From: Rhodobiaceae bacterium
GTDB taxonomy: Bacteria > Pseudomonadota > Alphaproteobacteria > Parvibaculales > Parvibaculaceae
DNA length: 63,518 bases
Reading direction: 5' to 3'
NCBI GenBank assembly: GCA_002715765.1
Contig: PAZY01000053.1
Coordinates: forward strand, 1-63,518
This document shows positions 52,436 through 55,999 of this stretch, piece by piece (the first letter of the stretch is position 1; each line of letters opens with the position of its first letter). The position numbers and the translations under genes are program-made. A model generated the notes under the pieces. The model saw only the letters and a list, made by a program, of their open reading frames with translations, did no database searches and was not told the DNA's origin.

Positions 52436-54334
52436 ATGCTCAATTTCCTCAGAAGTCACGCCAGCGGCTGGGTCGCCAAGATCCTTATCGGTTTGCTCGT
52501 CATGGCGTTTGCCGTATGGGGCATCGCCGATGTCTTCCGTGGGTTCACCAGCACCACGATCCTGACGGCAGGTGACACGGAAATTCCCGCAGACCGGTTT
52601 GCCGCGGAATACCGCCAGCGCCTGAATGAGTTTGCCGAGCGTATCGGCCAGCCATTGACGGCTGCTGAGGGGCGGAAATACGGTATTGACCGCCGGGTAA
52701 TCGCCCAATTGGCCGGGTCTGCTGTCTTGTCCGAAGAAGCATCAGACCTCGGTCTCACAGTCTCGGATGCGCTCGTGGCAGCGGATATTCGCGGCGATCA
52801 GAATTTCTTCGGCGCGTTTGGCAAATTTGACCGGCAAACGTATGAGCTTGCCCTCGCGCAAAGCCAGATTTCCGAAGCTGCCTTCGTTAATGACCGCCGC
52901 GAATTCATGACCCGCGACCAGCTTCTGAAAGCTGTAGCCGGTGGTGCAACGGTCCCTGCCGGGCTGGCGGAAGCGATGTATGAGTACCAGTATGAGACCC
53001 GGACAGCGCGCTATATTGTGCTTCCACCGGACCTTGTCGGCGATATTGAAGACCCGGCTGAAGATGTCGTTGCAGCCTATTATGCTCAAGCATCCAACCG
53101 GTTTACGAAAGAAGAGACGCGCTCTTTCTCTGTGCTGACGGTTAAACCCTCCGACATTGCGCCAACCATCGGTGTTGATGCAGCGCAATTGGAGCAGGCC
53201 TTTGAAGACCGTCGCGGACTGCTCGACAAACCCGAAACCCGTACCGTTATTCAAATCCCGTTGCCGGACGCGGAAGCTGCGGCCGATGTTTCCGCCCGGT
53301 TGAAGGCGGGCGAAACAGTTGAAAGCGTTCTGACGGCGAGAGGGCTCAGCCTCGACGATGTGACCCTGACCAACGTCACGGAACGCGGTTTCCTGTCCCC
53401 CGACATTGCGGCGGCGGCTTTTGCGCTTTAGCAAGGTGAGGTGAGCGACGCCATTGACGGCCCACTTGCCCATGTTGTGTTGAAGGTGGAGAACATTTCG
53501 CCGGCCGCCCCCGCGGTTTTTGAAGACCACAAAGAGGCAATCAAAGCCCAACTGGTTGAAGATGCCGCCGCAGACGCGGTCTTTGATCTCTACAACAAGA
53601 TTGAAGATGAACGCGTCGGTGGGGCCACACTTGATGAAGTGGCGACACGTTTCTCACTTGATGTGGTCAGCGTCGATGAGGCCACGCGTACGGGGCTGAC
53701 CCGTGCCGGACAGCCGCCTGCCAACATGCCCAGCATTCCGGGCCTCATTTCTGAGGTCTACGAAATGGATATCGGCATTGAAACACCCGCAAACGACCTT
53801 CCCGACGGTGGCTATTACTGGGTCGAAGTAACAGGTGTCACCCCGGCAGAGGTCAAACCGCTGGACGATGTCCGTGCGCAGGTCATTGCACTTTGGAAAA
53901 GTGAGCAACGCAAAGTCCTGTTGGACGCGCTCGCGCAGAGCCTGGTTGAGCGCGGTAATGCGGGCGAGTCTATTGATGCGCTGGCGGCAGAGCAGTCACG
54001 CGTTGCCCAGACTTCACAGCCCATGCTTCGTCGTTTTTCCAATGACACGTTCTCGCGCATTGGAGTGAACAGCCTGTTTGGTTCGCCGGAAGGCGGGTTT
54101 TCTTACGCGCTCGCCGGATTTGGCGACAGTATGGTGGTGATGCAGGTCGCCAAGATTGAAACACCCGAGCCCGGCAACGGAACGGCCGGTCTTGACGAAA
54201 TTCACGATGCTCTTTCAGAGCGCGCCGGTGATGATCTGATTGCCTCACTCGTGACGGCACTTCAGGAAAAACATGTTGTCGAAGTCAATTACGGCTTGCT
54301 TGACCAGATGGTCGGCGATGCCTCTGGCAGTTGA
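52436..54334 (+). pseudogene. PpiD-like peptidyl-prolyl isomerase interrupted by TAG
   Basis: The frame from ATG 52436 to TGA 54332 encodes a PpiD/SurA-N-like protein: an N-terminal anchor (VAKILIGLLVMAFAVWGIADV), a SurA_N domain (about 40-170) and a parvulin-type region. An in-frame TAG at 53429-53431 interrupts AAAFAL-stop-QGEVSDAIDG, a stretch where relatives have a Lys or Glu before QGEVS. One base change explains it. The frame then continues for 300 codons with good codon use. Either a recent nonsense mutation, a base-call error, or translational read-through. Confidence 0.85.
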
Positions 54335-54354
54335 TGAACGTGCGGGAGCGATTG

Positions 54355-54378
54355 ATGATGTATTGGTGGCGAAACTAA
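54355..54378 (+). CDS. trpL: Tryptophan-rich leader peptide trpL (MMYWWRN)
   Basis: A seven-codon ORF, ATG 54355 to TAA 54376-54378, with two adjacent Trp codons (TGG at 54364-54369). GGGAG (54344-54348) sits six bases before the start. An in-frame ATG at 54334 would add seven residues. It lies directly before the interleaved hairpins in front of trpE. Ribosomes stalling at the Trp codons would keep the first hairpin arm free, as in classical trp attenuation. Confidence 0.75.
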   Translation: MMYWWRN

Positions 54379-54387
54379 GCTTGATTA

Positions 54388-54432
54388 AACCGTGAGCAAG
54401 GCGGGTGGCCCTCACGGTTCACCCGCCTTTTT
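54388..54432 (+). terminator. trp attenuator: mutually exclusive antiterminator and terminator
   Basis: Hairpin A pairs AACCGTGAG (54388-54396) with CTCACGGTT (54411-54419). Hairpin B pairs AAGGCGGGTG (54398-54407) with CACCCGCCTT (54420-54429) and is followed by a T-run (54428-54432). The arms are interleaved, so only one can form. B is a strong intrinsic terminator; A would prevent it. The trpL stop is 10 bases before arm A. Alternatively B only ends the ppiD transcript. Confidence 0.75.
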
Positions 54433-54487: not shown

Positions 54488-55999
54488 ATGTTTCACCCTG
54501 CTTTTGAGAGTTTTGAATCCGCTTATCATTCCGCAGCGCCACAGGTGGTCTGGACACGGTTGGTCGCTGACCTTGAAACTCCCGTCTCTGCCTATTTGAA
54601 GATTGCAAAGCAACTGCCCAACAGCTTTCTCCTGGAATCTGTTGAAGGTGGCGATACGCGGGGCCGTTACTCCATTATCGGCCTGAAGCCAGATGCCATC
54701 TGGAAGGCGCAAGGCGACAAAGCCAGCCTCAATCTGCAGGTTGAAACAGACCCGCAGGCTTTTGAACCCTGCCAGGCTGGTACACTTCAATCCCTGCGGG
54801 ATTTCATAGAAAGCGCACGCATTGAGTTACCTGAGGCCCTGCCCCCCATGGCTGCCGGCGTTTTTGGCTATATGGGATATGATTCCGTCCGATTGATGGA
54901 AAATCTGCCTGACGAAAATCCGGACGTGCTGGGTCTGCCCGACGGTTTGTTTCTTCGACCAACGGTGATTGCCGTTTTTGACTCCGTCAAAGATGAAGTC
55001 ATGTTGGTCACGCCTGTCCGTGTTGCCGATGCTGTGACAGCAAAAATGGCATACGAGCGTGCGCTGGCGCGGCTTGAGGTGACCATTACCGATTTTGATC
55101 AGGCACTCGCTCATGCAGACCCTATGGTCGATGTTGCCACCATGCCCGCACCGGTTTCCAATACGCCGAAAGAGACCTATTTTGAGATGGTCCGTGCCGC
55201 CAAGGAATATATTGCTGCAGGGGATATTTTTCAGGTCGTGCTCAGCCAGCGATTTGAAGCACCATTTGAGCTGCCCCCTTTCTCTCTCTATCGCGCGCTT
55301 CGCCGGATCAATCCATCTCCCTATCTCTTCTTCCTCAATTTTGAAGGGTTCTCACTGGTTGGCTCCAGCCCTGAAATTCTGGTTCGGGTGCGGGACGGGA
55401 AAGTGACAATCCGCCCGATTGCAGGTACCCGGCACCGGGGCACAAGCCGTGCCGAAGATGCGCTGATTGCGGCGGACCTTCTGGAAGACCCTAAGGAGCG
55501 CGCAGAACACCTAATGCTGCTTGATCTGGGGCGAAATGATGTGGGTCGCGTCTCTAAACTCGGTTCTGTACGCGTGACCGACCAGTTTGCGCTTCAGTAC
55601 ACATCACACCTCATCCATATCGTGTCGAATGTGGAGGGTGAACTTGATAACAAGTTCGACGCTATTTCCGCACTGATTGCCGGGCACCCGGCCGGCACTG
55701 TTTCCGGCGCGCCAAAAGTACGGGCGATGGAAATTATCGATGAGCTGGAACTCGAGAAGCGGGGCGCTTATGCGGGGCTTGTCGGTTACTTCTCTGCGGG
55801 CGGGGATATGGACACCTGTATCGTGCTGCGCACAGCGGTCGTTAAGGACTGGAAAATGTATGTGCAGGCTGGCGGTGGTGTTGTTGCTGATTCCACCCCC
55901 GAATACGAGCATCAGGAATCGGTGAACAAGGCCAAAGCACTGTTCAGGGCTGCGGAGGAAGCGGTACGGTTCGCCTCAGAAGCGGGACGCGGCCAATAG
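54488..55999 (+). CDS. trpE: Anthranilate synthase component I
   Basis: 503 residues from ATG 54488; a GTG six codons earlier is possible. The chorismate-binding domain has PIAGTRHRG, DLGRNDVGRVS and SGAPKVRAMEII. The N-terminal domain carries the LLESVEGGDTRGRYS region that binds tryptophan as feedback inhibitor. It lies after the attenuator and is separated from trpG by the convergent deacetylase gene, with a 24-base tail overlap. Confidence 0.95.
   Translation: MFHPAFESFESAYHSAAPQVVWTRLVADLETPVSAYLKIAKQLPNSFLLESVEGGDTRGRYSIIGLKPDAIWKAQGDKASLNLQVETDPQAFEPCQAGTLQSLRDFIESARIELPEALPPMAAGVFGYMGYDSVRLMENLPDENPDVLGLPDGLFLRPTVIAVFDSVKDEVMLVTPVRVADAVTAKMAYERALARLEVTITDFDQALAHADPMVDVATMPAPVSNTPKETYFEMVRAAKEYIAAGDIFQVVLSQRFEAPFELPPFSLYRALRRINPSPYLFFLNFEGFSLVGSSPEILVRVRDGKVTIRPIAGTRHRGTSRAEDALIAADLLEDPKERAEHLMLLDLGRNDVGRVSKLGSVRVTDQFALQYTSHLIHIVSNVEGELDNKFDAISALIAGHPAGTVSGAPKVRAMEIIDELELEKRGAYAGLVGYFSAGGDMDTCIVLRTAVVKDWKMYVQAGGGVVADSTPEYEHQESVNKAKALFRAAEEAVRFASEAGRGQ

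Follow-up and report, generated by a model that had tools for sequence, protein, structure and literature searches.

The window, i.e., the whole stretch of 63,518 nt that was analysed, comes from a genome of 3.65 Mb and carries an unfused trpE gene. On the forward strand, trpE is preceded by a short putative leader element and, further upstream, by a gene with SurA_N_3 and Rotamase_2 domains, which we take to be ppiD. After trpE follow a gene on the opposite strand and then trpG, trpD and a gene that is presumably trpC. The closest named relatives of its TrpE include those of “Alpha proteobacterium Mf 1.05b.01,” which is now classed in Parvibaculaceae, and of a “Rhodobiaceae” genome bin (86% identity). 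The locus comprises the following features:

52436–54334, + strand: ppiD-like gene, upstream (SurA_N_3, Rotamase_2)
54344–54348, + strand: GGGAG, Shine-Dalgarno-like by sequence and presumably so in function, 6 nt 5' of the first ATG
54355–54378, + strand: leader ORF MMYWWRN-stop, ATGATGTATTGGTGGCGAAACTAA, read letter by letter; putative as a translated ORF
54364–54369, + strand: tandem Trp codons TGGTGG
54388–54396, + strand: A5, AACCGTGAG, putative antiterminator 5' arm (sequence and pairing)
54398–54407, + strand: B5, AAGGCGGGTG, terminator 5' arm, within the loop of A (sequence and pairing)
54411–54419, + strand: A3, CTCACGGTT, putative antiterminator 3' arm, within the terminator loop (sequence and pairing)
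54420–54429, + strand: B3, CACCCGCCTT, terminator 3' arm (sequence and pairing)
54428–54432, + strand: T run closing the terminator stem
54488–55999, + strand: trpE, anthranilate synthase component I (PF04715, PF00425)

A sequence-only reading had proposed a compact tryptophan attenuator at this site. Checked letter by letter, its ORF, hairpins and T run were found where it had placed them, and a Trp leader ORF followed by a terminator is indeed positioned before trpE; the distance from the leader stop codon to A5, given there as 10 bases, counts 9. Terminator B (B5/B3) is a GC-rich 10-bp stem with a T run, situated between the leader ORF and trpE, and was missed by a terminator scan with a loop limit of 8. 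Helix A (A5/A3) has 9 bp, and the spacing from the element to trpE is 55 nt.

The arms follow each other in the order A5-B5-A3-B3, with linkers of 1, 3 and 0 nt in the terms of an H-type pseudoknot. Since the third linker, of 0 nt, is unable to span a 9-bp helix, the full helices A and B should exclude each other, and the proposal of mutually exclusive interleaved helices is upheld on these geometrical grounds. The accompanying claim that the two hairpins share no arm is true of their cores, which have 0 bases in common, but not of the minimum-energy forms, which borrow bases from each other: A gains a GGC/GCC pairing that takes part of B5, and B gains one outer-loop pair and two inner pairs that take part of A3. 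Folded alone, A reaches -17.4 and B -22.0 kcal/mol, so that B, once complete, is the more stable and could always win. A is nevertheless the best alternative helix, with a score of 23 versus 7.5 for any helix with the terminator 5' arm. Neither an upstream arm that would shield A5 in the untranslated leader nor a protector hairpin was found.

The ppiD-like gene contains an in-frame TAG (53429–53431) with the frame open on both sides, and the same site lies in one uninterrupted frame in three relatives of the genus; the TAG may be a real nonsense change, a variant or an assembly error. If real, it would leave about 920 nt of untranslated message before the leader, which would favour a nearer promoter. 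No promoter-like site was seen on the + strand from 52371 to trpE.

Chance expectation and occurrence in relatives

As genomic controls, 75 terminators (stem of at least 8, loop of at most 16) were collected from 400 kb of the same genome. A WW ORF of at most 20 aa within 110 nt 5' of the terminator occurred before one of them (MWWHAFA, L159), with no evident Trp gene beside it by eye, and the longest interleaved helix among the 75 was 7 bp, against 9 bp here. When the gap was shuffled 4000 times, a WW ORF appeared in 96 shuffles and a terminator in 17, and both together in none. With B held and the flanking arm region and loop shuffled, an interleaved helix of at least 9 bp arose in 7 of 5000 trials. 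This joint rarity, together with the site just before trpE, makes coincidence unlikely, even though the finding was picked out of a whole window.

A TrpE search matched 131 of 192 genomes and a second one 206 of 385, and the upstream regions of 205 other trpE genes were inspected (30 at L007 and L009–L037, plus sets of 80 and 95). Of these 205, which had passed through three different filters, 0 had a tandem-Trp ORF with a terminator behind it; 2 of the 95 in the last set were shorter than 300 nt. The element is missing in all six relatives of the genus (L009–L014). Since it was found in none of the relatives examined, it looks like a lineage-specific gain. In most family loci measurable by script, about 6 to 120 nt separate the upstream stop from trpE; for several family loci its output was missing or implausible. 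A dispersed repeat element was also considered and ruled out, because the 125-bp block is single-copy in its own genome and has no copy in the genus.

Several other structures were observed in the corresponding gaps. In G361 (L324), the gap that follows the upstream gene holds a strong plain terminator without a Trp mini-ORF, about 97 nt ahead of trpE. In 6/6 relatives of the genus, AAGGAGAC is followed by a predicted hairpin of 10 pairs and then by the trpE ATG (L009 and L012, 1456–1503; L010, L011 and L013, 3008–3055; L014, 3020–3067), with both-sided changes at 2 of the 10 pairs; this arrangement, absent or degenerate in the window, perhaps regulates the translation of trpE in these sister species. 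Furthermore, in three of these relatives, G002, G003 and G004, the ppiD-trpE gap contains an additional palindromic stretch of about 100 nt (L010, 3075–3175, minus strand; L011; L012). It has weaker matches at other places in the genus and is possibly a dispersed element in the same gap.

The main rival explanation is that the element is a plain intrinsic terminator at the end of the ppiD transcript, which uncouples trpE from ppiD, and that the presence of a WW mini-ORF and of helix A is coincidental. The lack of the element in all relatives examined agrees with this, as does the terminator of G361 in the same gap with no Trp ORF, and WW mini-ORFs do arise by chance in GC-rich DNA, as the single case among the 75 terminators and the 96 among the 4000 shuffles illustrate; a further example, MSQPVKSRRAWWWSS in L277, lies inside apparent coding DNA. 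However, this explanation requires that a WW ORF and a 9-bp interleaved helix coincide right before trpE, and a plain terminator with no visible promoter behind it would starve trpE. On balance, we regard it as unlikely.

Layout of trpE(G) leaders and position of the ribosome

For comparison, 37 loci were assembled, comprising 29 of 38 matches from one order and the 8 of 23 trpE(G) loci over the cut-off that had a WW ORF upstream. A leader with a terminator was present at 31 of the 37 and absent at 6; 27 of the 31 belong to one genus (g55) and the other 4 to four families. The layout of the comparators was classed from the tandem Trp run; an earlier classing by the last Trp of the ORF, which had put 5/31 “in loop,” was superseded by it. 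In 28 of the 31, including all four comparators outside g55, the best competitor pairs with the terminator 5' arm, and in the remaining 3 it straddles the arm and the loop on the 5' side; in 0/31 does it sit in the loop's 3' half, as it does here. The element falls outside the class in which the antiterminator uses the terminator 5' arm (7.5 for a shared-arm helix versus 23 for the loop helix). The claim that its layout differs from the usual one thus stands against these 31 trpE(G) leaders, 27 of them from one genus.

The 3' edge of a ribosome lies at P+15 to P+17. With this edge, a ribosome at the leader stop codon reaches 54388–54390, covers 1–3 of the 9 bases of A5, and weakens A from -18.0 to -16.5, -15.3 or -12.7 kcal/mol. 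The masking of arm A by a ribosome at the stop codon, on which the sequence-only reading relied, is therefore not borne out: most of A5 stays free and A retains -16.5 to -12.7 kcal/mol. The energy change from the stalled ribosome to the ribosome at the stop is 1.4 kcal/mol here, versus 3.7–25.3 kcal/mol in the 12 of the 31 comparators on which this comparison drew.

Switching was followed with a simple model of ribosome footprints and polymerase exposure. While the RNA is exposed to 54420–54425, A is predicted to dominate with the ribosome stalled or absent (P(A) 0.93–0.97), and B takes over once 54427–54428 are exposed; in the model, A before B is the right order for an antiterminator. With the terminator half exposed, a shift toward it is predicted for 27/31 (P+15) or 15/31 (P+17) comparators, and the element (54424) goes from 0.0 to 0.0 (P+15) or from 0.0 to 0.08 (P+17), i.e., does not switch. 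It does switch when the edge is at P+17 and 54425 is exposed, P(B) then rising from 0.00 to 0.70, and the switch is strong with 5 bases of A5 covered. By these figures, the stop codon appears to be about 2–4 nt too distant for a clean switch. With the terminator nearly all exposed, only 8 of the 31 comparators themselves move toward it, which indicates that the switching model is itself sensitive.

The marginal masking and the shallow predicted switch would also suit a decayed or half-formed attenuator, which once worked or does not yet work and is nearly constitutive, with A or B always winning. The lone occurrence of the element and the in-frame stop in the upstream ppiD point the same way. 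Against it, neither helix has a mismatch along its 9 or 10 bp, which would be unexpected after long decay, and the model does switch at P+17 with 54425 exposed. We consider this explanation improbable.

A candidate tryptophan attenuator and its known counterparts

The most likely reading, which we hold with some confidence, is that the element is a ribosome-mediated Trp transcription attenuator of trpE with an unusual layout. When charged tRNA-Trp is short, a ribosome would wait at TGGTGG, A would form first, and B5 would be held in the loop of A; because A3 joins B3 without a spacer, B would be unable to close over the intact 9-bp A, and RNA polymerase would continue into trpE. With ample Trp, the ribosome would move on to the stop codon, cover the first bases of A5 and make A less competitive, so that B could form and transcription would end. 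As this covering is small, the switch should be shallow or aided by tight coupling of ribosome and polymerase.

This reading is favoured by the anatomy and position of the element, the joint rarity of its parts, the rank of A as the best alternative helix, the order of A before B, its single copy in the genome, and the likeness of its tandem Trp codons, near the end of a short ORF, to trpE(G) leaders of the class. Its absence in relatives, the small covering of A5, the missing A5 shield, the lack of a promoter-like site and the greater stability of a complete B count against it. A further point against it is that no leader ORF with a terminator was found upstream of leuA, ilvB and trpB in the genus (runs of I/L/V or WW tested); WW ORFs do stand before trpB at 6 of 7 loci of the genus, without a terminator. 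The attenuator would be lineage-specific, and perhaps young or shallow. The fuller proposal of a recently born attenuator of a single lineage, in which the pseudoknot-type A5-B5-A3-B3 topology provides exclusion without strand sharing and the ribosome covers few bases of A, is offered tentatively, as somewhat doubtful.

The trpE(G) leader of S. meliloti (rnTrpL) is reported to mediate Trp attenuation, and its RNA to act on trpDC mRNA (PMC7298713). By analogy, the terminated leader RNA of the window might be mainly trans-acting. A crude duplex scan of 3618 stretches of the window beyond the leader itself placed the best partner of the leader RNA (54355–54432) in trpC at about 59395 (-62.0; -64.8 when centred), and none of 60 shuffled versions of the leader attained -62 in trpGDC. 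There is, however, no perfect 9-nt match in trpGDC, the duplex energies omit the costs of unfolding, and the reading is post hoc; we consider it very improbable.

If the proposed attenuator works, it shows that a single lineage can evolve a Trp attenuator in the space between two neighbouring genes, and that the strand sharing on which attenuator finders rely (the 2:3/3:4 rule) is unnecessary, which would add another layout to search for. If it does not work, the locus is a warning example of a leader that passes all anatomical checks yet fails the ribosome arithmetic. Neither this locus nor interleaved attenuators figured in any title returned by a literature search of partial coverage. An Rfam search of the window gave no Trp_leader match at the gathering threshold and none to any leader family even at E 5, and a known Rfam leader was rejected, the matches being sub-threshold noise only.

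Among known systems, the alphaproteobacterial trpL-trpE(G) leaders (S. meliloti rnTrpL and the TIGR01815 loci compared above) resemble the element in having a short ORF with adjacent Trp codons near its end, a terminator and a competing helix before an anthranilate synthase gene. They differ in that their competing helix lies on the terminator 5' arm (28/31) and not in the 3' half of the loop, and in that their target is a fused trpE(G), whereas trpE is unfused here. The enterobacterial trp leader, represented in Rfam as Trp_leader, likewise has a terminator and tandem Trp codons ahead of trpE; unlike it, the element has no shared arm, and no protector hairpin was found. The actinobacterial trp attenuators, as described in PMC1262725, also combine a leader with UGG codons (double or triple there), an antiterminator and a GC-rich terminator, but complementary triples are common to both of their hairpins, whereas the helices of the element are built from two separate pairs of arms.
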